From Amphibalanus amphitrite (Eukaryota > Arthropoda > Thecostraca > Balanomorpha > Balanidae): a stretch of DNA of 64,000 nt. Location of the stretch: positions 248,001-312,000 of the forward strand of contig NW_024881844.1 in the NCBI RefSeq assembly GCF_019059575.1, read 5' to 3'. The position numbers were made by a program, and so were the translations under genes. The notes beneath the pieces are model-generated. The model saw only the letters and a list, made by a program, of their open reading frames with translations. It did no database searches and had not been told where the DNA came from. Of this stretch, positions 7,545 through 59,335 are shown in pieces (the stretch's first letter is position 1; each line of letters opens with the position of its first letter).

Positions 7545-7810
7545 TTATCACTGAAAAAAGTTTTTACCATCAATTTACTAAGTTACTAGCTTTGGTAAAT
7601 TTTACCATCAGCCTACCATCATATTACTACCAGCCTACTATGGTGCTGAATACTATCCTGCCTTGACATGTTGATATTACCATGGTTACGTTTATCAGGG
7701 GTGGTTTTGTACCCCAGTTTACAAGGTGGTAACCACCTGAGGCTAGTAGATACCCTCGTAAGCTAATATTCCCTACCATAGTAAAATCAACCTTTCCACG
7801 GGCGGATCCA
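7545..7810. repeat. TACCAT-rich repeat segment (left)
   Basis: The segment starts ATCACTGAAAAAAG and is rich in TACCAT, TTACCATGG and GGTAA words. Related sequence ends at about 13325 in inverted orientation (CTTTCAGTGAT). It may be one end of a large composite element or two copies of one family. Confidence 0.3.
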
Positions 7811-8039
7811 GCAGGTGAATTCGGCGATCAAGTCTCCTCCTTTCCATAGAGGTGTTTGCCAATTTTTGATATGTTGGAAGGAGCGTCATCCAAGGACTAG
7901 CTGAGACCCTGAGCAATTAATAGTTTTATGGACGAAAGGCCAGAAATTTCTTGCAACAGTTCCCTGGGTGTGCTTCTGCTGCTATGGTAAGGTATACCAT
8001 GGCAACACCATGACAACACTACACCCTTACTAACAATCC

Positions 8040-8189
8040 ACGTGCGTCTGACTCTGCTGCAGCGGCGCCGCCATGTCAGTTCCGGCCGCGCGCCGGCGTT
8101 GTGAAGGTGCTCCGTGGTTTTAAATATTTGAACGGTGATTGTGTGGGTGGTTAGCGTAGCTGACGGTGGAGGATACTCGGAAATAACAA
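8040..8189 (+). other. Candidate GC-rich first exon with GTAAGT donor
   Basis: A CpG-rich block (GCAGCGGCGCCGCCATG at about 8060) ends at ACAA|GTAAGT (8190). The ATG opens only 16 codons, so if transcribed this would be a 5' UTR. The sequence shows the donor and the base composition; anything more is inference. Confidence 0.2.
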
Positions 8190-8994
8190 GTAAGTCGTTG
8201 TATCTTCAGCATAATAATACTTATCTCACGAGTGCCATTTCCAGCAAAGATCGCAGCCTTTGTTTCGGTTCATGTTGTTGAATTTCCTTGAGACCCTGTT
8301 GGACCGGGTAGGGGGAGGGTGGTGGGGTGGGTATCATTGCGGGCATTTCCCAGCGTCGGAAATCAACGTGTTTTTTTATTTGTTAACCCACGCCTCACTG
8401 GGGTATGTGCTCTAACGCGCCCCACAGCACGTTACAGCACGTTACAGTGGGGGGGGGGGGGGGGCTCCTAACTCCGAAACTACTGGGCCGATTGTCAAAA
8501 TTCAAACGGCCCCTGGTAGCCCTGGAAATATTGTTGAGCGAAGCCTAATGTCATTGACCTCGAGGTCATCGATGACGTCACAGATCAGGTCAAAGTAAAA
8601 ATATCAGCGTCTTGGCACTCTGGGCGCCGGCCAACAAATCAGATCAGGCTCATTTTTTGTTTGCACACTCGTGAATATATGCGTAACATAACCTGAGGGT
8701 ACCGAACTTGTACTTCGAATTTTTCAGGTCAAGGCCATCTCATCCCAGGTCACGAAAGCTTTATATCGTGCATCGGTGACGTGAGACATGTTTTATGGTT
8801 CATGTAGGCCATATATATCGAAATCAGTGTTGTATGTGTCAGTTTAGGCCATTTTAGCTGAATATAGCTGAGGTCAGGTCAGGTCACTTTAGGTCAAAAA
8901 TGGTCAAATTTTGAAGTTGACATTTTTCAACAAAAAAGGTGTTTGTCAGATGAAGTTCACATATATTCAACGCATATGTGTTCAAACACATATA

Positions 8995-9207
8995 GACCCC
9001 GTTTCCATGGGCATCACTGATCCGGATCAGCAAACTTAAATCGTATTATATTTCTCGAACTCTTCGTTACATGATATAATTCCAAGTGGATTAGGCTTAT
9101 ATAATCAGTTAATCCCTTATTTTCATTTTCATATATTGTCTAACTATACTGGATTAGCTAATCCATTTTTACTGATCCGGATCAGTGATGCCCATGGAAA
9201 CGTGGTC
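8995..9207. mobile_element. Short MITE with about 30-bp inverted ends
   Basis: GTTTCCATGGGCATCACTGA at the left is repeated as its exact inverse at the right, extending through GATCCGGATCAG on both sides. The interior of about 150 bp is AT-rich and non-coding. ATA lies on both flanks. The superfamily cannot be assigned. Confidence 0.55.
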
Positions 9208-9372
9208 ATATTCTGCTTTTTTTCATTCAGAAACGTATATGTAAAAAAATAAAAAATACAATTTCTGAGTTTTTATATTTATAATTTTCAAAATATTCAA
9301 CATTTCGAAAGTCCGAAATCAGTTTGGTAGCCCTGTAGAGTCCACCCATGCAAAAAAAAGGATCTAGCTTAA

Positions 9373-10540
9373 CCCTCAAGGCGGTGGGGGGGGGGGGGGG
9401 GCATTTTTTGCATCCATCTTTAGGTTTTTTTTTCGATATATCTCCAGAACCGCTGCGCCGATCTTCACCAAACTTTCAGTACCCTTTTGCACATTGTGAC
9501 CAAATTTTTTTTTTCCAAAGGCTATGATAAGTTGGCCGCTACGTCGGAGTGACGTCATTTCTGCCATTGTCGACCAAAAAAAAAGCTTCGCGGGAAGAGC
9601 TGTCAGGTCTATAAATTTGATTATGCATAAAAATGTTCAAGACATGAAATGTGTAGAATTACCAGGGCTACTATACTGTTCTCTCGATTTTGTTTTTGAA
9701 GTTGACCCCAAAAATAAAAAGAAATAGATATAATAGCCAAAAAATCCCAAAAGTTTTTCGATTTTCGAAACAAACGGAATATATGTAATAGCCACTATGG
9801 ACTTCTATTCACATTCCAAGTATTAGATCGATAACTCCTTTTTGCCAAGTTATAACAAAAAAAAAACTGTTCAAAATTAATGACGTCAAATTTTCAAACT
9901 CGATTTTGGCAATTCTAGACCACAAAGCGCAAAACAAAGACCACCATTAGACTCGCCGTGACGAGTGGCATCGAATCAATACCAATTTTATGCGAAACTA
10001 TCAACTTTGACCTGAAATTTGACCTTTTTGACCTGACATTGACCTGACCTCCACCAGAAAGTGACCAAAAAACCGTCCCTGATGGTCTTATAACCAACAC
10101 CATTGAGGCGAATATGAAAAATTGGCCATAAAACATGCATCGCACAACCCTACTTAGTAAAGATAGGTTCATGTGCTGACCCTTGGTGATCGGACCTGGT
10201 ATTATCAGTGACCTCCAATAGCAACATATGCTCGTATAATAGGCAACTCACGCCCTATCGCTGATTTTTGACAAAATGCCCTTTACTCGATGTTGCAGCG
10301 CATTCCTTAAAAGACCCGTGAACGGTGAAACATTTTATCTTTGACTTGGCCTGTGATGTCATCGGTGACCCCGAGGTCAATGAAATTGAAGTTCCCTCGA
10401 CAAATTTAACAAGGCTATCGAACGCCATTTAAATTTTACCGATCCGTCATAGTAGCTTCGGAGATTCGGGGGGGGGGGGTCAAAAATCCCCCCCCCTCCC
10501 ACCGCGCGGAAGGTAGCCGGGAGGCCCACCGCTTGCCGGG
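9373..10540. mobile_element. TTAA-type element (family F), copy 2
   Basis: TTAA at 9369-9372 and 10541-10544 bounds inverted ends (CCCTCAAGGCGGTGGG and CCCACCGCTTGCCGGG) with a G-run at the left and a G/C-run hairpin at the right. The host sequence on both sides (GGATCTAGC-TTAA-AACTCAGATCTTGAGAG) matches an unoccupied site at about 23153-23185 in a related element. Confidence 0.65.
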
Positions 10541-10798
10541 TTAAAACTCAGATCTTGAGAGCGATTACCGTTGTTCAATGCTTTGCATCAAAATCGGCCG
10601 AACATGATGTCACTCTGGCGTCATTTCCGGCCGATCTATAGTAGCTACGAAAATTTTATTAGTGCACAAGGTGTCAAATAAATTGATGCAGCCGAAGGTC
10701 CTAAAAGCTTTGTTTTGATACGTCCAGCGGTTTTAAAGATATTGCGTAAACACGAGAGGGGCTATGAATAGCCCTCCCCACAGTAGGGTGGGGGTTAA

Positions 10799-11710
10799 CC
10801 CTCGCCCGTATTGGTGTTTTTCAGCCACGAACGTTTAAGGGGGGGGTCCGTTGAACCCCCTCCTTGCCGTTTCGCCCCTGATTGAGCTAGAGCTTCGCGG
10901 AAAAAACGAGCGTGCTGCCCGTGACGAGAGAAAGCCGATGGTACCCAATTTTATCCTAGGTCGTCGGTCCTAGGTCATCGGTTGACCTTCCAGGTCAGGT
11001 CAATGACCCAAAAGTGGGGAAAACTGGGACCTGTTAGAACGTCGTAAAACGTGGCTGCTATTGGGTTTTTTAGGGAACTGATCACGAATATCATGTTAGC
11101 TATGATCATAGATGATGTCTTCATGCATTTAGGCCAGGTCGGGTCAGGTCAGGTCAGGTCAACCAGTAAGGGTTTTGCCGGGTATTCGTAGTAGGTGCAC
11201 TAGGTGGCAACCGCCTCTGACAGCTTCGTAACATGTTACGAAGGCACCAAAACTACTTCGTAAATGTTCATATATGGTTGTTAAATTCGAAATCAGCTAA
11301 AAAAAAACTAGCCTAGAAAGATGCTGATAAAACTCGAAAAAGTAAACCGAGGTCATCAAAGGTCAATGAACTGACCTGACCTTCTGGTGACCTTGACATC
11401 CACCCTAATGCATGGGAGCAGCATCATATCCCATGTTTGAACGCTTGAAACCACGAAAGGACTGCAAACGCGCGGCAAATGCGAGCCGACATACGCCGAA
11501 TCGCGATTCCGGCCAAACATGGTCTCGAAAAGTAGGTCACAGGTCAAAGGTCATTAGTCAGGGCCATTACATTTTTTAGGGTAGGTGTAAAATTGATTAT
11601 AACTCGAGGGTACTGAAAGCTTCGTTGCGGTCGGCCGCTTTTTACGCGAGGTATTCGCGAAAAACCGAGGGGGAGTCCGTTCGACCCCCCCCCCCCTATA
11701 CGGGGGAGGG
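10799..11710. mobile_element. TTAA-type element (family B), copy 1
   Basis: TTAA at 10795-10798 and 11711-11714. The left end is CCCTCGCCCGTATTGG, closely related to family A, and the right end is CTATACGGGGGAGGG. It contains AGGTCGGGTCAGGTCAGG tracts and a TTTACGCGAGGTATTCGCG hairpin near the right end. No transposase. Confidence 0.65.
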
Positions 11711-27069: not shown

Positions 27070-27215
27070 GCCAGTAGCGGCGGAACACCTTCGATAAGGG
27101 GGGCACTGCCAACTTTTGGTCCCATTCTTTCCATGCAACGCCCATAAGGCTAATGTTAAAACGCTAAAATCAAACGGGGGCACGGTGCCCCGGTGCCCTC
27201 CCCGTTCCGCCGCCT
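27070..27215. repeat. Family D repeat, copy 1
   Basis: AGTAGCGGCGGAACACCTTC, then GGCACTGCC, TTTTGGTCCCATTCTTTCCA and GGCACGGTGCCCCGGTGCC, to GTTCCGCCGCC. It is shared almost base for base with 54657-54806. The outer ends (GCGGCGGAAC/GTTCCGCCGC) are inverted. Confidence 0.55.
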
Positions 27216-27374
27216 ATGGCGGCGGCGAGTCTATTGCACTGGCCAGATTGTCGTCCTGCACAGACCTGCACTGTTATTTTAGTTGTTACCGTTAACCGTT
27301 CGTCCTGATGACCTGTTACTTGACCCGACCGACGCGTTAGCCTGGTCGACGGGTAATCGCGGCCTCTACTAGTT

Positions 27375-44807: not shown

Positions 44808-47754
44808 TCAGCTGCCTTCCACAGCCAGCTCGTCCTCGGGCCAGTGCTCGGTGAGGATTTCCACGCCGTCCTCCGTGATGAGGACGGTGTGCTCAAACTG
44901 CGCTGACCGGCTCCCGTCGCCTGAGATGGCCGTCCAGCCGTCCTCCAGTAGTACAATCTCCCGCGAGCCCTGCGATGCGACAAAGAAACAGCATGTCCAC
45001 AGTGCCACGCAGTGCTGTCCGTCGCAACATGGTGCGGTGAAAGGTTTTGTAGCATACTTTGCGACCGTAATGATACGACGTGAGATAACTACATACATGC
45101 CACCGCTGAGACATAATATTTATATGTTACTTCCTCCTTGTCATCTAAAAGAGAGACGCGTCTGCTCACAACTCGGGCTGGACCTGGACTGGACGCAGGG
45201 CCGGGCCGCTCGGCGGACTGACCTGACTGATGACCGGCTCTATGGTGAAGGTCATGCCCGGCCGCATGGTGCCCGGGTACGAGTTCCAGCAGTGGTAGAT
45301 CTCGGGCGGGCCGTGGAAGTAGCGGCCGATGCCGTGGCCTATGAACGCCGGCACCACGGCGTGGTCTAAGTGTCCAGCTGAGAGCTCCACCCGGCTGCCT
45401 GTGGAGACCGGAGAGGCCAGTTACGCGGACAGTACCGGCGTGACAGGCCGTCGCAATGGTGATATGAGATGCAGTAAGGTCGCCCTGGGTCAGTGTAGCC
45501 AATGAAGACATTGTGATGCGTGGGAGAAAAGAACCATTGCACCCCATTGAACCTACACTTATAAGCGCCCGAACAAGTCTCACCGATCTCTGAGAACGGC
45601 ACTCCGGGCCGGCAGATGGCGATGGCGTCGTCCCGACAGCGCCGCGCCGCGTCGATCAGTCGCAGGCCCTGCTGGTCCACCTGCCCCACCGGGTACGTCT
45701 CCGAACAGTCGCCGTTGTGACCGTCCAGAAACACCTGCGCGGGAAAACGTCGCCATCGGTTCGCAGCAGGCAGCATGTGTTTGGAAAGGTTAAGTGAGAA
45801 ATAGAACACAGCCACATCTTTGCATGCGCGACTGGGCACTGATGCGATGGAATAAAAACAGAATAAACAGGATAATAATTAGACGAGACACAACCTTCAT
45901 GAGAATTGTAATTCATTCGATAACAGATCCTAAAGCGTAAAAACACATGAAAATGATATCGGTGTTCAAAGTGCAGCGAGGAAAATCGGCCGACGTCCGC
46001 CTCGAATGCCGACTACGGCCTCGTGAGTCGCTGTGCTCCGCCAGGCGGGGAAGCACACTCGGCTCGGCTCGGCGGCGGCGGGACCCACCGGGGACTCACG
46101 GTGACGTCGATGTTGATGATGTCGCCGTCCTCGAGCGGCCGATCGTCGGGGATGCCGTGGCAGGCCACGTTGTTGACTGACGTGCAGACCGACTTTGGGA
46201 AGCCACGGTAGTTGAGTGGTGACGGGTAGGCGCCGTGCTGCACGGTCAGCCGGTGCACCAGCCGATCAATCTCCTCAGTGGTCACACCCGGCTGCAAACG
46301 GGCAGATCCAATCAACAGAGAGCACCAGAAGTGACTGAACAGAAATAGAAATACATCAGACCGAGTGCAGCAATGTAAAAATTATCCAATATCAATGCAT
46401 TCTGGAAAATAACATTTCTATATCTCAAATAATCAAAAGCTCCAGGCCATTTGCATGTTGATATACTTTTTATGCATCAAATACACTGATGATCATGTGA
46501 TTCATTGGAAAATTAATAGTTCCATGGTGCGCATGTAATAGGTAGGTACTGGCCTTTGCCAGCTGTTTGGCAGCATGTAAAATCTTGCTGGCCAGTCTGC
46601 ATGCCCTCCTCATCTTCCCTAGATCATCCTTTGACTTGCAGTCAGCCTCAGCTGGAGGATCACTGGGCACACCAGACTCTGCCCATGGTGGCCTCTGAAT
46701 GCTGTCAGGGACTGGCTGCGCAGGCAACACTGTCCCTGGCTCGACCAGAGAGAAATTACCAAATGCTGAGCTGAAACACCAAACAAGCATCTTATTAGGT
46801 TTTATGCACTTTGCTGAGACTTGAGACTACTAGTTGTTCTTCAAGATGAAAGCAACATTTTAGAGGTGAGAATAGAAGTTTCCATCACCAGATTTAAAAT
46901 AACCATCAAACAACATGGAGATGCACTGATTCCTCTCATTTCAGACAGCCAAGGTTTTGTATTCTGTATTTTCATTGGCTAGCTACAGGCCTCACAGCCC
47001 ATTTACAGTGGCAGTGATAGATTAAACTAGAAGGCCCAGCATATGATGAAGATGGCACATCACGTGTGTGCCCTGAGAACAAGCAAACTCACTGATGTTG
47101 GATACTACAGAACATGATGATGCCAGCATGTCAGCAATGGGTGTATGCTGATTGCTAGAAGAAGTGGTTAGGTACAAAGCAGAAAGCACAGGGATATGAA
47201 CAGTGAACCCTGACTTCCCAGTATTCACACCACTTTGACTTAACAAAACATGCAACAGCCATGTCTGTCAACAGCATCTGCTGTACATTTAGCTATTGTT
47301 ATGGACCATTTCAGATTTCAGTCTGCTTTCAAAAAGCAACATAGGTAATTCTAAAGAATACTGCTTCCACAGTCACAGATGCGGGCATCTTCTCTTCAAG
47401 GTGGCCGGTGGTGGTTCGGGGGAGGTGCCCTGGCTCCTCAGGTGCTCGCAACAGTAGGTACGTAAATAACGAAAAATCAAATTGATTAATTATAGCCTAG
47501 TCTTATAACTTACAGCCTACGAGGATTTGAAAATATAAATAAAAAGTGCCACAATTTGTGTTGTGATCTCTGAATACATGCCCTCAGGCCACCAGCCCCG
47601 AACATTCACCCCAAGGGGTTCTCTTACCTGGTTCTCTTACCTGGTTGGGTTCCCATTTGTGTCGGAAAGAAAAGGCAAGGTGGAAGGACCGAAAGGAATT
47701 GGAAGGAACCCTGAATGCCAGACGCGCCAGCCCAGTTGTGATATTCTTGACCAT
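44808..47754 (-). CDS. METAP1D: Methionine aminopeptidase 1D, mitochondrial type, complete, 6 exons
   Basis: This is a type I methionine aminopeptidase, which removes the initiator Met from nascent proteins using a dinuclear metal centre. The N-terminus ([20 protein letters not shown], basic, Ser/Arg-rich, no acids) looks like a mitochondrial presequence, and the protein matches METAP1D better than cytosolic METAP1, lacking its zinc-finger N-terminus. Exons on the - strand: 47754-47628, 46765-46554, 46291-46100, 45734-45584, 45398-45223, 44969-44808 (TGA). The product is about 339 aa, against 335 for human METAP1D. All five metal ligands are present by spacing: Asp175 (IINIDVT), Asp186 (HNGDCSET), His249 (GHGIGRYF), Glu281 (FTIEPV), Glu312 (AQFEHT). 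The substrate-site His is in CHGIPD. Two oddities: the exon 1 donor is duplicated in tandem, and the exon 2 donor has no in-frame GT and appears to be GC. The gene is convergent with Sin3 and divergent from canopy, with a LINE directly upstream. Confidence 0.9.
47615..47643 (-). other. Tandemly duplicated splice donor of METAP1D exon 1
   Basis: The 13-bp segment AGGTAAGAGAACC occurs twice head to tail, giving two identical GTAAGA donors, after 47641 and after 47628 (reading the - strand). Only the distal one leaves phase 1, which joins the phase-1 acceptor at 46765 and keeps the METAP1D frame. The proximal donor would shift the frame. Confidence 0.6.
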
Positions 47755-47891
47755 TAGTCCTGGGAGTTTTGACTGGTATTGTGCGTCTTCCACAAGCTCG
47801 TCAGATGAACACAGTCACATTTCTACACGCTTAGCTACGAGGAAGTAACCTACATACCTATAACTACTTACAAAATCAGCACTGCTCATCC

Positions 47892-50783
47892 TCAATCATA
47901 TCTGAACAGGCTATTACGTGCATGTACCTCAATCATTTTCTTAAAGCTAGCTATGTTAGGTGCACGGACAGCATCCTCAGGCAGTGAGTTCCAAACAGCA
48001 ATGCATCTGACAGAGAAAAAGCGCTTTCTAGTGTCTGTGTGGGTGAGAGTGGGGAAAATCCTAAAGCAGTGGCCCCTAGTCCGCTCCTGTGGAGGGCGGT
48101 CGAACAGGTCATCTGGACTCAGGCACGATCTACCGTTAAACAGCTTCCAACATTGTATCAAGTCCGCACGAATGAGCCTCCCTTGGACAGAATACAGGTT
48201 CAAGGACTGTAGGCGATCTGCATAGCTTAATCCATTCATTCCATCCACTCGCTTTGTCCACTTCCTCTGAACATTTTCTAAGACCCGCAAGTCTTTCAGA
48301 TAACCTGTATGCCACAAGCATGAACAGTATTCTATAACAGGTCGGATATGAGTAGTGAGCAAGAACAACATAAATGCGCGAGACCTGCAAACGGTAGACT
48401 TAAGAAAACTATGGGCCAGACCGCTAGCCTTGTGTGCAACAGTCCTAATGTGCTCGTGAAATTTAAGCTGCGAGTCGACAGTAACACCAAGATCAGAGTG
48501 AGAATCTACATGTGGGATTTGCTGTCCATCAAGGAAGTACACCGGTGAAGGCAAGTTAGCGCGGGGCCTCGCAAAGCGGAGAACTGCACATTTCTTTGGG
48601 TTCATTTTCAGACACCACGATGCTGCTGTGGTTTGTAGTGTATCAATGTCTTTTTGTACTTGGGCAGAGGATAACACTGGTGAGGTTCCTGGGGCATGTT
48701 TCACACAGGCATAAAGTTTCAGGTCATCTGCAAAAATTTTATATTCACTTCTCAGCTGTGATGCTACGCCGTCAATATAAACCAGGAACAACAGGGGCCC
48801 AAGGACAGAGCCCTGCGGTACACCACTGCTGACAACCCTAGGTTGGCTTATCATGTCCTTCACACACACCTGCATCTGTCTGCCCTGGAGAAATGAACGT
48901 ATCCAGTCAATGAGAGCACCTGTCAAACCAATCGATCTCAGTTTGGTTATCATGAGATCGTGGCAGACGACATCGAACGCCTTACTGAAATCGAAGAGAA
49001 TGACGTCAGTCACGCCACCAAGGTCCATGTTTTTAGACACTGTGTTATAAGCTAGGAGTAGCTGGTCCATTGTACTTCTGCCAGCCCTGAAACCGAATTG
49101 GTTTGAGGTCAGCAGTGAGTTCGTTTCCAGGTAATTACGTATCTGCGTGCAAATCAGGCGTTCCATCGTTTTGCACACAACAGACGTCAGACTGATAGGT
49201 CTATAGTTTAGTGGATCAAACCGGGAGCCCTTCTTGAAAATAGGTATAACTAGGGATTTTTTCCAGCAAGAGGGTAGTCGTCCCTCTCTCTGTGATCTCG
49301 TGTATATAATCTGTAGAGGGTAGGCGAGGTCATCAGCACATTCCTTCAATACCTGTGGATGTATTCCATCGGGGCCCATGGCAGAGTTAGGGTCGAGATC
49401 TTTGAGAGCATGGCGAACATTCTCTGTACATACTTCTACATGGCTGAGAGTCCCGTCGAAGGCCTGGTGGGGCGAGGGGTTAGTGGGGGTGACAGTGGTG
49501 AATACAGAGGCAAAAGATGTTGCAAGTAGCTCAGCCATAGCTGTGGGATCATCAGTATGGTGACCAGATTGCAAAAGCAAGGGACCAACCGCTGGTCTGC
49601 CAGTCTTCTTGTTTCTTATATAAGAATGGAGCAGTTTGGGGTTGTCCTTTGACCTGTCAATAAGACTAGATTCGTAATCACACTGCGATCTGGCGGCAAA
49701 ATTTCGCAACTCGCGGTTTACAGATGAGAAAAGCTTATATGCGGCCAGTGTACCAGTAGAGCTTCTGCCAGATTGCTGCCTCACCCTCTTGTACGTCTGC
49801 CAAGCTGCCTGGCGCCTGTGAATTAAGGAAATCGGGGGTCTTGTTTTCCAGGGTGGTTTAGGGGGATTAGCTTGCTGTGTTGGCACATGTAGGTCTACCA
49901 TCTCTGAAATGATGGCTGTGAAACGGTTAAACGAGTCCTCCACATTCAGGTAGGCCAGCTCGAAGTCCCAGTCCAAGAGCTGTAGTGATCTACGCATTGA
50001 AGCATATCGAGCTTTGTGCCAGTTTCTCCTGTGGGACATTGTCCTCCCATGAGGGTCAGCAGCAACATTTTCAAAGACATAGTCACATATCGTCGGACAG
50101 TGGTCACAACCTGGGAGAGGGGCTTGTACCATAAGTTGACCAATACGGTCTGGCTCAGATGTGAAGACCAGGTCCAGTGTATTGCCTGACCTCGGGTAGG
50201 TTGGCTGTGTAACCCACTGCGTAAGTCCAAGAGAGTTAAATATGTCAACAAACATTTGGATTGTCCTCGATCCTCCTGAACTATTAAGTGGATTTCCATG
50301 GCACCAGTCAAGTCCAGGGAGATTGAAATCTCCCAACAATATCACTTCCTTATCACTGCAGAAGTTACTTAGAAAGGAGCAAACAAGTTCGTTCTCAGTG
50401 TCAGAATAAGAGGGAGGTCGGTAGACTACAGCAACAAAAACATTATAAGACACAAGACAGAAGGTGAGAACATTGGGAATTGGAGCTTGAACATTACCAA
50501 CAGTGATGTTGTTATGCACATAGGCACATACACCATGTTTGTACACTGTACCATTAGTATCATTTCTAATGAGATTATAGTTAGGAATGTTTACAAATGA
50601 GTCTGGAATGTGCTGGAGGAGATGAGATTCAGTAACACAAACAATGTCAAGTTTTGACGAATCTGCAAAATCAAAAAGCATGTTCACCTTGGAGCTTAAG
50701 CCATTGAGATTGACCTGTGAAAGACGAATCAGGGTAGATTTAGGCAGATCATTCAGTTTCCCGCGACAGAGGTGGAAGGGGCA
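47892..50783 (-). CDS. LINE ORF2: AP-endonuclease and reverse transcriptase
   Basis: This protein nicks target DNA and reverse-transcribes the element RNA. The open frame runs from just after a stop at 50784-50786, overlaps the end of ORF1 by about 30 nt in the -1 frame, and ends at TGA 47892. Endonuclease motifs: VNLNGLSSK (catalytic Asn), CVTESHL (catalytic Glu), VVYRPPSYSD, LLGDFNLPGLDW, GCDHCPTICDY. Reverse transcriptase motifs: LNYRPISLTSVVCK, NQFGFRAGRSTMDQ, DFSKAFDVVCHDL, GVPQGSVLGPLLF, FADDLKLYA (catalytic Asp pair), LGVTVDSQLKFHEHI, then a CR1-type thumb with HIRPVIEYCSCLWH and LENVQRKWTKRV. The first Met in frame (50681) is downstream of the catalytic Asn, so normal initiation there would give an incomplete endonuclease. 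From the shift point to the stop is 954 aa. Confidence 0.88.
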   Translation of the reverse strand, partial: CPFHLCRGKLNDLPKSTLIRLSQVNLNGLSSKVNMLFDFADSSKLDIVCVTESHLLQHIPDSFVNIPNYNLIRNDTNGTVYKHGVCAYVHNNITVGNVQAPIPNVLTFCLVSYNVFVAVVYRPPSYSDTENELVCSFLSNFCSDKEVILLGDFNLPGLDWCHGNPLNSSGGSRTIQMFVDIFNSLGLTQWVTQPTYPRSGNTLDLVFTSEPDRIGQLMVQAPLPGCDHCPTICDYVFENVAADPHGRTMSHRRNWHKARYASMRRSLQLLDWDFELAYLNVEDSFNRFTAIISEMVDLHVPTQQANPPKPPWKTRPPISLIHRRQAAWQTYKRVRQQSGRSSTGTLAAYKLFSSVNRELRNFAARSQCDYESSLIDRSKDNPKLLHSYIRNKKTGRPAVGPLLLQSGHHTDDPTAMAELLATSFASVFTTVTPTNPSPHQAFDGTLSHVEVCTENVRHALKDLDPNSAMGPDGIHPQVLKECADDLAYPLQIIYTRSQREGRLPSCWKKSLVIPIFKKGSRFDPLNYRPISLTSVVCKTMERLICTQIRNYLETNSLLTSNQFGFRAGRSTMDQLLLAYNTVSKNMDLGGVTDVILFDFSKAFDVVCHDLMITKLRSIGLTGALIDWIRSFLQGRQMQVCVKDMISQPRVVSSGVPQGSVLGPLLFLVYIDGVASQLRSEYKIFADDLKLYACVKHAPGTSPVLSSAQVQKDIDTLQTTAASWCLKMNPKKCAVLRFARPRANLPSPVYFLDGQQIPHVDSHSDLGVTVDSQLKFHEHIRTVAHKASGLAHSFLKSTVCRSRAFMLFLLTTHIRPVIEYCSCLWHTGYLKDLRVLENVQRKWTKRVDGMNGLSYADRLQSLNLYSVQGRLIRADLIQCWKLFNGRSCLSPDDLFDRPPQERTRGHCFRIFPTLTHTDTRKRFFSVRCIAVWNSLPEDAVRAPNIASFKKMIEVHARNSLFRYD
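50753..50762 (-). promoter_or_regulatory. Candidate -1 ribosomal frameshift heptamer GGGAAAC abutting ORF1 stop
   Basis: Read on the - strand in the ORF1 frame the sequence is GC G_GGA_AAC_TGA, which is a canonical X_XXY_YYZ slippery heptamer. Slipping one base back reads GGG AAA and then CTG AAT GAT, which is exactly the ORF2 frame. I see no strong stem-loop just downstream by eye, though a pseudoknot cannot be excluded. Confidence 0.55.
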
Positions 50784-51808
50784 TCACGAGCAGCAGCAGC
50801 AGCCTGAGCCTGGGGAGGGTGATCAGCATTGTCAGCTCTAGCAGCCGAGGAACCCCCTGCTGTCACTGAAGAGGCTTGGCGAGATTGCACAGCTCCATCT
50901 CCATCTCCAGTTTGGGGCTCCTGGGCCTGCCGCGCCTGCCTGCGTCTCAAGTACTGCTCAGTTCTCTGGGCATAAGTCAGGTCCCTAGATATGAAGATGC
51001 CTCTATAGTCATCAGAATCCTTTAGCTGTTTGGCTTTATCCAGCAAGAGCTTTCTACTTTCATCATCAGGGATTTTGACTCTGAAGAAGTTACTTTGGCC
51101 AGGGATAGCCAGTACCTCAGAAGCTTCTACTCTAGTCCCTGTGTGATTCCTGGCAAACTCAGTGAACTTGGCCTTGAACTCAGTGGTAGATGAGGCAGGC
51201 AAACCCTTGACTACGACAAAGGCACGGCGTTTGTCCCGTTCCTTCTGCTCCTTCATCTCCTCCCTAATGAGGGTACGGTAGTCCTGAGAGGGGTTAGTGG
51301 CAGTGATAGGCTGGTGTGGTAGGGGATGAGGAGCAGCGGTTTGTCCCTGCACATTCACCAAAGCAGCATCGTGGTTGGGGAGTTGGGGAGTTCTGGAAGA
51401 AAGCTCCTTGACTTGAGAGGTGAGTTCCTTGATCACAGCACACATTCCCTTCACCTGGACATGCAGCTGTTTGACAGTCTCCGCGAGGTGGGGGTCTGTG
51501 TGGCCACTTGGGGAATTGCCCCGAGCAGTCACCTGTTCGACCCTGCATTTCATGCATATAAATTGAATCCCTGCCCCATCATACTTTAATATAGCATTAA
51601 TGAGCTCCAGCGGCAGTCCCGAACACATCTGTGATCCATGCACCCACTGCTCACACTTGTCACATCCCACAGGGTCAGGGCCAACATCATCGCCACAAGT
51701 ACCGCAGAGGCACTCCTCACCCCTTTGGGTTGGAGGGTTAGACACACTTGCACTCCTGTCTCTCTTCGCTCCCCTAGTTCCCTTATTCCTTTGGTTACCC
51801 CGACGCAT
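50753..51808 (-). CDS. LINE ORF1: PHD-finger nucleic-acid-binding protein
   Basis: A 351-aa protein of the ORF1 type carried by CR1/L2-group LINEs. Residues about 33-90 form a PHD-type zinc finger (CLCGTCGDD, CDKCEQWVH, C, FICMKC). Residues about 108-145 are a predicted coiled coil (TVKQLHVQVKGMCAVIKEL, then TSQVKELSSR). After about residue 190 comes an RRM-like region (KRRAFVVVKGLP, then FFRVKIPDDESRKLLLDKAK), followed by a basic stretch (YLRRRQARQ). The family role is binding element RNA and chaperoning it. The start ATG at 51808 is the first Met of the frame with good N-terminal sequence (MRRGNQRNK). The last codons read GCG GGA AAC TGA, placing a GGGAAAC heptamer directly before the stop; ORF2 is open in the -1 frame. 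Confidence 0.85.
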   Translation of the reverse strand: MRRGNQRNKGTRGAKRDRSASVSNPPTQRGEECLCGTCGDDVGPDPVGCDKCEQWVHGSQMCSGLPLELINAILKYDGAGIQFICMKCRVEQVTARGNSPSGHTDPHLAETVKQLHVQVKGMCAVIKELTSQVKELSSRTPQLPNHDAALVNVQGQTAAPHPLPHQPITATNPSQDYRTLIREEMKEQKERDKRRAFVVVKGLPASSTTEFKAKFTEFARNHTGTRVEASEVLAIPGQSNFFRVKIPDDESRKLLLDKAKQLKDSDDYRGIFISRDLTYAQRTEQYLRRRQARQAQEPQTGDGDGAVQSRQASSVTAGGSSAARADNADHPPQAQAAAAARDAPSTSVAGN

Positions 51809-52120
51809 AGTTCAACAATCTTCATGCAAACAGGGTGCAAGGACAGGTGTGGCAGGTTGCGGTCTGAGACTGGGCGTCACAAGGGTGCTGCAGCAAGCGT
51901 GCAAAGGAAATAGCAACCAGGCTGACACTTAGTGGTACTGACAACGAGGCAAGGCGTGCAGGCGTGCAGACGTGCAGAGCAGGGGTGGCAGTGCAGCAGT
52001 CCAGCTTGCAGTTGCAGCATGCAGTTGAAGGCGTGCAGTTGGAGGCAGCGACAGGCCACGTCTTTTCAGCACTTCCAGGCTCTTTTACCAAGCGCCACAG
52101 TCCAAAGCCGTGGACGTATT

Positions 52121-54351: not shown

Positions 54352-55435
54352 CACGCGCAGTGGAATGAGGGGGCGGGGGTGGATTTCGCCCATCCCTCCA
54401 GTTTTTCGACAATAACTCGCGCCGAAAACATAATATCAATTTGAAATTTTGGCTACTTGTCCACAATTGAATTGCGGATCTTCTCGTGCAAGAAATAAGA
54501 AAATCGGTTCACAACTTTTCCAGTAATAGCGGTGTAAAGTCAAACATCCTGCCGCCGCGGCGGCGCGACTGCCGGCGCGGCCGTTACGCGCCGCCTGAAT
54601 TGTAGACTGTGCCGGGGCAGGGGCCGGGTTCCGTTTTTGCATCGCGCCGGCGCTCCTCAGTAGCGGCGGAACACCTTCAATTAAAGGGGGGCACTGCCGA
54701 CTTTTGGTCCCATTCTTTCCATGCAACGCCCATAGGGCTAATGTTAAAATGCCAAAATCAAAGGGGGCACGGTGCCCCGGTGCCATCCCCGTTCCGCCGC
54801 CCATGGCGCTCCTTACCGCTGATTACATTTGATTCGCGTCAAATTTTGTGAGAAGACTAAGAAATGTACAGGCAATCTTATGGTCAAAAAAGTTTGAAAC
54901 TCGGCTTGTGAAAACTTGAGTTATGAGCGTGTAAACACAAAATTTTGTGTCAAGTGAAATCACAATTATTGTGATTGCCGCGTTTCCCGCGTCGGCCGAT
55001 CCCGCTTCAGCCGGCGACATCTTACTCTTAGCAGGCTTCTAACTGCCATATTTATTGTTAGATTTAACTAGAAATTCATCATACGTACTCACAAATGTAT
55101 GTTCTTTCGTATAGTGAAAGAAAAAAGAAAATCGGCCGGTAACTTTTTGAGTTATCGGCGTGTAAACGCAAAAAAGTCGCTCATACGGCAGATTTGACCA
55201 AATTTGACCTCATTTGACCTTGAAGATATGACCTAGGGTCATGAAATTCACACACAACAGAGTTCCTCAGGGCCCCCACCTACCCACAAAATTTCGTCTT
55301 TCTAGCTCCAGTGGAAGCCGAGATATTAGGGGGGGGGCGACAAGTTGTGGCCCCCCTAATATCTCGGCTTCGACAACTTCGACAACTTCGACCCTTCCTC
55401 TGGGTGTAGTACTCGCAACCCTTCCACTGCGCGTG
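54352..55435. mobile_element. TTAA-type element (family C) nested in family B
   Basis: Inverted ends CACGCGCAGTGGAA are bounded by TTAA (54348-54351 and 55436-55439). The family B flanks CCCAATTT-TTAA and GGTCTTAGG correspond to an uninterrupted AATTTTAAGGTCCTAG at about 24477. It carries family D at 54657-54806 and a hairpin CCGAGATATTAGGG at about 55320-55365. No transposase is seen. Confidence 0.65.
54657..54806. repeat. Family D repeat, copy 2
   Basis: Same sequence as 27070-27215, here inside the TTAA-type element at 54352-55435. Confidence 0.55.
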
Positions 55436-58299: not shown

Positions 58300-58760
58300 G
58301 CGCGGCGGGGCGGCGACCGAGCGCAGCCGCCCGTACTGCCGCAGCTCTTGAACGCCGCGGGGTCCGGGCAGCTGGGCAGACGGCTGGAATGGCGGGGCGG
58401 CGACCGAGCGCAGCCGCCCGTACTGCCGCAGCTCTTGAACGCCGCGGGGTCCGGGCAGCTGGGCAGACGGCTGGAATGGCGGGGCGGCGACCGAGCGCAG
58501 CCGCCCGTACTGCCGCGGCTCTGGAACGCCGCGGGGTCCGGGCAGCTGGGCAGACGGCTGGAACGGCGGGGCGGCGACCGAGCGCAGCCGCCCGTACTGC
58601 CGCGGCTCTTGAACGCCGCGGGGTCCGGGCAGCTGGGCAGACGGCTGGAAGGGCGGGGCGGCGACCGAGCGCAGCCGCCCGTACTGCCGCGGCTCTTGAA
58701 CGCCGCGGGGTCCGGGCAGCTGGGCAGTCGGGTGGAATGGCGAGACGGCGACCGAGCACC
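58300..58760. repeat. 87-bp minisatellite, about five units
   Basis: The segment starting CGGCGACCGAGCGCAGCC recurs at 58311, 58398, 58485, 58572 and 58659 and degenerates after 58746. Because 87 is a multiple of three, long repetitive frames (Arg/Ala/Pro-rich) stay open on both strands; I do not take them as genes. Confidence 0.8.
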
Positions 58761-59335
58761 GCCGCCCCCGACTTGTCACGGCACTTGCCGTCGCGGGGAG
58801 CGGCGGAGTGGCTGATGGCCCGCGCGGCGAGCTGGACAGCGGAGCACCACCGCCCGGTCGTACCGCCGAGGTCAGCTGTTCGCCGGTGGCTCCAGGCTGG
58901 CGGCTGGGCGCTGGCGAATTGGGCGACGTGGCTGTGGGCGGGCACTGGGCAGGGTCCTCCCCTCCCCTCATCATTCCGCCCTTACGATACACATACATAC
59001 ACAATACACATACATCGCGGCATACACACACATACATCGCGGCACTCAGCAGCACACATGGTTACGATAATCGACAAATTTAACTCCCAGGTGCTCATGA
59101 AACATGATTATTTAACCTTTTTATACTCGTAACATCACGATACTGTGGGAAACTTTCATAACTTAATCACCGTCCGATAAATTTTGAATGGAATGTGGGT
59201 TTTTTATTAGTGATAGCGAAACCTCGAACCAGTCCGCCACCTTGTAGGAACTGATCTACCCATAGTCGAAAGAACAGGCATAACCCAAATCGGGCCCAAT
59301 GCCCGACTATCCACCACTTAGGTATGTTAATTGGT

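Follow-up and report, generated by a model that had tools for sequence, protein, structure and literature searches.

Sequence evidence for a probable programmed −1 ribosomal frameshift at the ORF1–ORF2 junction of CR1-like LINEs in Amphibalanus amphitrite

Results

A slippery heptamer at the end of ORF1

The window analysed here is a 64,000-nucleotide stretch of the Amphibalanus amphitrite genome (assembly GCF_019059575.1, contig NW_024881844.1, positions 248,001 to 312,000), which carries on its minus strand a long interspersed nuclear element (LINE) that we take to be CR1-like from its domain make-up. On sequence evidence, the second open reading frame (ORF2) of this element is probably reached through a programmed −1 ribosomal frameshift on the final two sense codons of the first (ORF1). 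The resulting product would be an ORF1–ORF2 fusion, as the first-pass annotation of this DNA had suggested.

The 3′ end of ORF1 reads ..GTC GCG GGA AAC TGA, which places the heptamer GGGAAAC in the X_XXY_YYZ register directly before the stop codon (Table 1). A backward slip of one base leads into CTG AAT GAT in the ORF2 frame, which lies at −1 relative to ORF1, and the two open frames overlap by 31 nucleotides (nt). The annotation had pointed out each of these features, with an overlap of about 30 nt, and all of them were recovered. GGGAAAC is the sole in-frame slippery heptamer within the 353-codon ORF1 frame. When the ORF1 codons were shuffled (100,000 trials), a slippery heptamer of any kind fell inside the overlap in 0.98% of cases, and one occupied the final position in 0.12%. 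The ATG found directly after the TGA belongs to the ORF1 frame and not to the ORF2 frame.

Retention of the heptamer and frame in 23 LINE families

Other LINE junctions were collected from the same 807.6-Mb assembly, so that all family comparisons come from one genome and one branch. Loci were found by ORF2 similarity searches, not by motif, and each search scored the best 47–71 of about 7,700–11,000 candidates, giving samples and no census. The fetched junctions represent 23 families (labelled A–K and M–X). Fourteen of these were compared pairwise and share 47–67% ORF2 identity, and families P, Q, R, S, T, U, V, W and X were set apart by their identity to the queries and their distinct junctions, not pairwise. 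The annotation had proposed other genomic copies and related elements as a check on its reading, and both bear it out: three loci of the window's own family (L003, L004 and L009) retain the heptamer and the frame, and 22 further families retain G_NNA_AAC and the −1 relation, 11 of them with exact GGGAAAC. In all 23 families, ORF2 occupies the −1 frame and is already open where the shift would occur, and an in-frame G_NNA_AAC (NNG NNA AAC) is present in or near the end of ORF1.

Exact GGGAAAC, the canonical X_XXY_YYZ form, occurs in 12 families (A, B, D, E, F, G, H, I, S, T, U and V; the window's and 11 others). The remaining 11 of the 23 have G_NNA_AAC only, in the form of GTCAAAC (P, Q, R, X), GGAAAAC (C, M), GGTAAAC (K, N), GCAAAAC (J), GAAAAAC (O) or GGCAAAC (W). 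The ORF1 stop follows AAC at once in 18 of the 23 families and is found at +1 codon in W and X, +3 in G, and +4 in F and I; TAG is used in 12 families, TAA in seven and TGA in four. Families F, G and I (L026, L027 and L033) form one clade (Shimodaira–Hasegawa-like approximate likelihood-ratio test support of 98 in a quick tree of 14 rows), in which all members have exact GGGAAAC with the stop three to four codons downstream rather than directly after AAC. They represent natural variants for stop coupling.

A junction rule applied to 82 loci was passed by 65, corresponding to 64 distinct places, since L009 and L048 coincide. This rule was written after the pattern had been noticed, and the unbiased view is given by the ORF1 tails themselves. 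The 17 failures include a foreign contig (L001), nine loci whose match begins inside ORF2 (L005–L008, L010, L024, L028, L030 and L031), two copies of families R and W with differing upstream sequence (L067 and L074, respectively), and two loci whose homology to their families begins downstream of the heptamer (L018 and L025). In the other three, the heptamer is present and ORF1 is open for just 15 codons upstream (L042), the match begins inside the endonuclease and no junction was read (L062), or there is ORF2 sequence only (L082). Six listed places with a match from query residue 73 or later (C890, two on C17, C435, C9 and C102:176589) were left out.

Relatives were also sought in viral-contig and genome-contig collections, which gave only one match, L001, too distant for use. 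This contig (CAKZOO010000095.1) is filed as a Flavobacteriaceae metagenome-assembled genome and is probably eukaryotic contamination. It encodes a LINE-like ORF2 with 27% identity to that of the window, in a frame with an ATG at codon 26, upstream of the endonuclease-like start.

Nucleotide-level conservation at the shift site

Among 75 alignment columns around the junction in the 23 families, only the first G of the heptamer and AAAC are invariant. The next most conserved column is the T after AAAC (20 of 23 families), and all other columns hold less than 1 bit. As a control, 13 ORF2s were compared, in which the third bases of two-fold degenerate codons were identical in 0.54 of same-residue pairs on average, indicating that synonymous sites are saturated between families. 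In the same set, the third base was invariant in none of 160 degenerate codons of an invariant amino acid. Shuffled ORF1 tails would be expected to carry NNG NNA AAC within their final seven codons in 0.2 of 23 families, against 23 observed. Three consecutive invariant third positions, set against this saturated control, argue that neither constraint on the ORF1 protein nor short divergence accounts for the pattern. Thus, the shift site is conserved at the nucleotide level beyond protein coding.

These data bear on two other explanations. Chance, or shared ancestry of neutral sequence, might be invoked because the 23 families all share a common origin, but it is already contradicted by the saturation of synonymous positions, the codon-shuffling expectation and the low information content of the flanking columns save the T after AAAC, and we assign it a negligible probability. 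Alternatively, the ORF1 C-terminal Asn or an ORF2-frame Gly-Lys-Leu motif could be kept for a function of its own, with ORF2 started elsewhere without an AUG. The ORF2-frame Lys is indeed found in 23 of 23 families and Gly-Lys-Leu in 15 (the rest have GKR, VKL, VKR, AKL or EKL). However, the frame-0 residue before Asn varies (G, E, V, S, Q or K, and A in W) while the third bases G, A and C are fixed, unlike those of the 160 conserved ORF2 codons. Furthermore, the ORF2 frame is open upstream of the motif for just one codon in families F and J and three in P, leaving hardly any room for an earlier start. A protein-level motif is therefore a very improbable explanation.

The start of ORF2 and points against frameshifting

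ORF2 encodes an apurinic/apyrimidinic (APE)-type endonuclease followed by a reverse transcriptase, the order found in CR1-like LINEs (Pfam RVT_1, E = 3.8e-33; Exo_endo_phos_2, E = 6.3e-10), and a profile of 13 ORF2s matches human L1 ORF2p across both domains (2.1e-34). The annotation had named an internal start with a complete endonuclease as one outcome that would speak against a shift. In the window, the first ORF2-frame ATG lies downstream of Asn25, which aligns with the active-site residue Asn14 of human L1 ORF2p, and a start at this ATG would therefore give an incomplete endonuclease. In the Zorro3 element, the endonuclease missense mutant N17A is reported to retain less than 5% of the wild-type level (PMC1965478). 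No in-frame ATG precedes the endonuclease Asn in 15 of the 23 families, including that of the window.

Several observations weigh against programmed frameshifting. An in-frame ATG is present ahead of the endonuclease Asn in the other eight families (E, H, J, O, P, Q, R and T), which may for this reason have a start-codon route to ORF2. In family J (L036–L038; positions ~2480–2497 of L036), GCAAAAC TAA is followed 5 nt later by such an ATG, and this family may have moved to, or retained, the start-codon route beside the shift site. The peptidyl-site (P-site) codon of families J, K, N, P, Q, R, W and X (CAA, GTA, TCA or GCA) should re-pair badly at −1, and the canonical tandem-slip model does not cover these families. 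Downstream of the site, no convincing 3′ stimulatory hairpin or pseudoknot, as expected of a canonical −1 signal, was found among local structures. The downstream 118 nt of the window show no significant structure (fold z-score +0.28, with 116 of 200 shuffles as stable), and folds of 60–120 nt in 15 sequences from 14 families gave z-scores from −1.28 to +2.13. A search for H-type pseudoknots in 18 families, a simple enumeration of stem energies within 85 nt that had no positive control, found none in 15, the window's family included. Weak candidates were detected in K, P and S, for which 14, 15 and 4 of 60 shuffles, respectively, were equally good. The annotation's remark that no obvious stem-loop follows the heptamer thus holds for hairpins and pseudoknots alike.

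Two ideas about the non-canonical P-sites were considered and dropped. That a rescuing ATG was gained where the P-site cannot re-pair (J, P, Q, R) looked good at 18 families, but once K, N, W and X were included the counts were 4 of 8 versus 4 of 15. That such P-sites need a stop at +0 was ruled out by families W and X, with the stop at +1.

The eight families with an early ATG also favour termination-coupled reinitiation in the ORF2 frame near the ORF1 stop, whether the restart uses AUG or a near-cognate codon, for instance CTG. The window has a CTG in the ORF2 frame that overlaps the ORF1 stop (CTGA), resembling the AUGA overlaps of some viruses. Reinitiation has been described for SART1 (UAAUG), and an unconventional form of it has been proposed for L1 (PMC5972666). 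The SART1 arrangement, in which the ORF1 stop overlaps or adjoins an ORF2-frame AUG, is not found in the window. A CTG start at the CTGA overlap seemed a serious rival from a single copy, but TGA directly follows AAC only in families A, D, K and V, and the corresponding codon in the other 19 is CTA, CTC, CGT or CGA, which ruled this start out. In addition, the AUG that comes next after the ORF1 stop lies in a frame other than that of ORF2 in 15 of 18 families (the exceptions, with an in-frame AUG, are H, O and Q), and the four near-cognates checked (CTG, GTG, TTG and ACG) are absent in good context (purine at −3, G at +4) between the shift site and the endonuclease in 18 of 18. Reinitiation also leaves the invariant G..AAAC upstream of the stop unexplained. 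Since a restart would need neither this motif nor the exact −1 relation, it fits poorly, and we consider it unlikely.

The element and its genomic copies

The coordinates of the element and its features are listed in Table 1.

Table 1. Features of the CR1-like LINE in the window (positions are those of the whole 64,000-nt stretch)
Feature	Position	Strand	Remarks
CR1-like LINE, full-length, ~4.4 kb	47619..52057	minus	bounds taken from other genomic copies
ORF1, 351 amino acids plus stop	50753..51808	minus	weak PHD finger, '..ISRDLTYAQR..' block, variable low-complexity tail
Overlap of the two open frames, 31 nt	50753..50783	minus	
Slippery heptamer G_GGA_AAC, ORF1 register X_XXY_YYZ	50756..50762	minus	kept as G_NNA_AAC in 23/23 families
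ORF1 stop TGA, adjoining the heptamer	50753..50755	minus	stop at +0 codons in 18/23 families, +1 to +4 in 5
ORF2 open frame, 963 amino acids (963 codons plus stop), −1 relative to ORF1	47892..50783	minus	APE-type endonuclease and reverse transcriptase
ORF2-frame Asn25 codon	50709..50711	minus	aligns to Asn14 in the endonuclease of human L1 ORF2p; the same residue in all 13 aligned families
First ORF2-frame ATG, codon 35	50679..50681	minus	downstream of Asn25, inside the endonuclease
Two tandem AACCAGGTAAGAG units, 3′ end of the element	47621..47646	minus	read by eye; copies terminate here

The ORF1 of the window shows a PHD finger match below the Pfam cutoff (E = 0.003), and its best match in PDB is also a PHD finger (E = 5.3e-4). 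PHD was matched in six of seven scanned ORF1s, in every case below the cutoff of Pfam, the ORF1 of family K being without a match. By eye, ORF1 contains a second conserved block ('..ISRDLTYAQR..'), and its tail upstream of the heptamer looks hypervariable between families. In L045 and L046 (families M and N), ORF2 is long and open and the ORF1 frame is open for just ~66–75 codons upstream of the junction; in other copies of these families (L050 and L051), ORF1 is open as far as the retrieved sequence extends.

LINE copies elsewhere in the genome share 99.3–99.95% identity with the element across the aligned parts. Their 3′ end falls at 47616–47626 in 10 of 11 compared loci (L007 ends at 47901), and the 5′ end of the match at 52036–52057 in the three loci that reach it (L003, L004 and L048). 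The start of ORF2 is missing from nine of 13 places of the window's family among the matches listed, which indicates frequent 5′ truncation. The element thus has the 3′ end of CR1-like LINEs, with a short tandem repeat, no poly(A) and frequent 5′ truncation. From the identity of the copies and the places without an ORF2 start, we conclude on sequence grounds that the element moved recently.

Two further repeats were observed in the window. A ~150-bp repeat (54658–54806 and 27072–27219), common to the flanks of the LINE copies L003 and L008, is probably another dispersed repeat. A GC-rich tandem array (58304–58767) consists of 5.3 copies of an 87-bp unit with 96% matches; as the unit length is divisible by three, long open frames are maintained on both strands.

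Discussion

How ORF2 of LINEs is translated is an old question that has been answered for few elements only. In the mechanism proposed here for the CR1-like element, the majority of ribosomes would read GGA AAC and terminate to release ORF1p, while a minority would slip back by one base and continue through CTG AAT GAT to produce a fusion of ORF1p, endonuclease and reverse transcriptase. The ratio of fusion to ORF1p would then resemble that of Gag-Pol to Gag. What can be read directly in the DNA is the heptamer, its register, the −1 frame, the closeness of the stop, the nucleotide conservation over 23 families and, in the window's family and 14 others, the absence of an ATG from which a complete endonuclease could be made; slipping at the junction and its frequency are what we infer. 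In the window's family, both tRNAs could re-pair after the slip (GGA to GGG and AAC to AAA).

The invariance of just G and A_AAC suggests that the slip of tRNA-Asn is required and that re-pairing in the P-site enhances it. Such a required core in the aminoacyl site (A-site) is proposed because eight families have poor P-site re-pairing, while AAC to AAA re-pairing is possible in all; the invariant first G is not accounted for by this scheme. The constant closeness of the 0-frame stop suggests, in turn, that slow termination may provide a pause in place of 3′ RNA structure. In its most specific form, which we put forward tentatively and hold at slightly below even chance, this CR1-like branch would make a Gag-Pol-like fusion by a stop-coupled, structure-free −1 shift, whose required core is only G_NNA_AAC beside the ORF1 stop, with P-site re-pairing optional. 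Such a signal would differ in kind from that of retroviruses, which pairs a heptamer with a pseudoknot, and it would give LINEs a third route to ORF2, beside reinitiation and 2A.

If frameshifting operates in these elements, they would set their structural-to-enzyme ratio like retroviruses and attach the reverse transcriptase to ORF1p, and models of ribonucleoprotein assembly and cis preference would change. If 3′ structure is not needed, the site would be a natural test of the required parts of a −1 signal, because P-site codon and stop distance vary naturally between the families. A fused protein made by programmed frameshifting is not an established route for elements of this LINE type. In the open-access literature, as judged by the titles and abstract openings of the top matches, we found no report of a −1 heptamer where ORF1 of a LINE meets ORF2; Repbase notes or subscription papers may mention one.

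In retroviruses, the structural protein is encoded upstream and the enzymes follow in the −1 frame, which is also the gene order of the window's LINE. The heptamer class is an established −1 slippery sequence, as the annotation had stated (PMC5009743, PMC3835772, PMC2800197), and G_GGA_AAC is ranked among those at which mammalian ribosomes shift most readily (PMC5009743). GGGAAAC sites, with the same heptamer and register as in the window, are listed for Mason-Pfizer monkey virus (MPMV), simian retroviruses SRV-1/2, Jaagsiekte sheep retrovirus (JSRV), squirrel monkey retrovirus (SMRV), the human endogenous retrovirus HERV-K10, feline immunodeficiency virus (FIV), ovine maedi-visna virus and caprine arthritis encephalitis virus (CAEV) (PMC3835772, Table 1). 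According to the same source, these sites have a pseudoknot 4–7 nt downstream, whereas none was found in the window's family. The LINE families also differ from them by a 0-frame stop that is immediate or within four codons. Rous sarcoma virus is like the LINEs in this respect, as the gag UAG comes directly after the −1 heptamer. Its heptamer is a different one (AAAUUUA), and it is listed with a 3′ structure and belongs to a retrovirus (PMC3835772). Frameshifting that is efficient without 3′ structure has been reported before, in Semliki Forest virus (PMC3835772).

The site of the animal retroelement-derived gene PEG10, GGGAAACTC, also uses a GGGAAAC −1 shift and has the same GN and GKL residues as the LINE site, but PEG10 is reported as a Gag-Pol-like gene of the long terminal repeat type, not a LINE, with a 3′ pseudoknot 5 nt downstream (PMC2800197). 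Among non-LTR elements, SART1 and L1 share with the window's LINE a bicistronic RNA with closely spaced ORF1 and ORF2 (PMC5972666). Termination–reinitiation is described for SART1 and proposed for L1, whereas in 15 of our 23 families no AUG in the ORF2 frame precedes the endonuclease Asn. Recoding has been invoked for other non-LTR elements as well. For Paramecium LINE groups 1–3, a +1 shift or reinitiation, or readthrough, has been suggested from consensus sequences (PMC5405496), and HeT-A gag is stated to require a frameshift (PMC5009743). These cases differ from the present one, since the Paramecium elements would use +1 shifting or readthrough and HeT-A has no reverse transcriptase, and the passages of these two papers that deal with them describe no family-wide −1 heptamer for either. 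Within the CR1 lineage, types III and IIIB are reported to have a PHD-containing ORF1, and some CR1/L2 groups apparently have a single ORF (PMC4120745). The window's element resembles this lineage in an ORF2 with APE endonuclease and reverse transcriptase and may do so in the candidate PHD finger of its ORF1, slippery sites not being part of the discussion in the relevant sections of that paper. By analogy with the single-ORF CR1/L2 groups, a fused ORF1–ORF2 product may not be foreign to the CR1 lineage.

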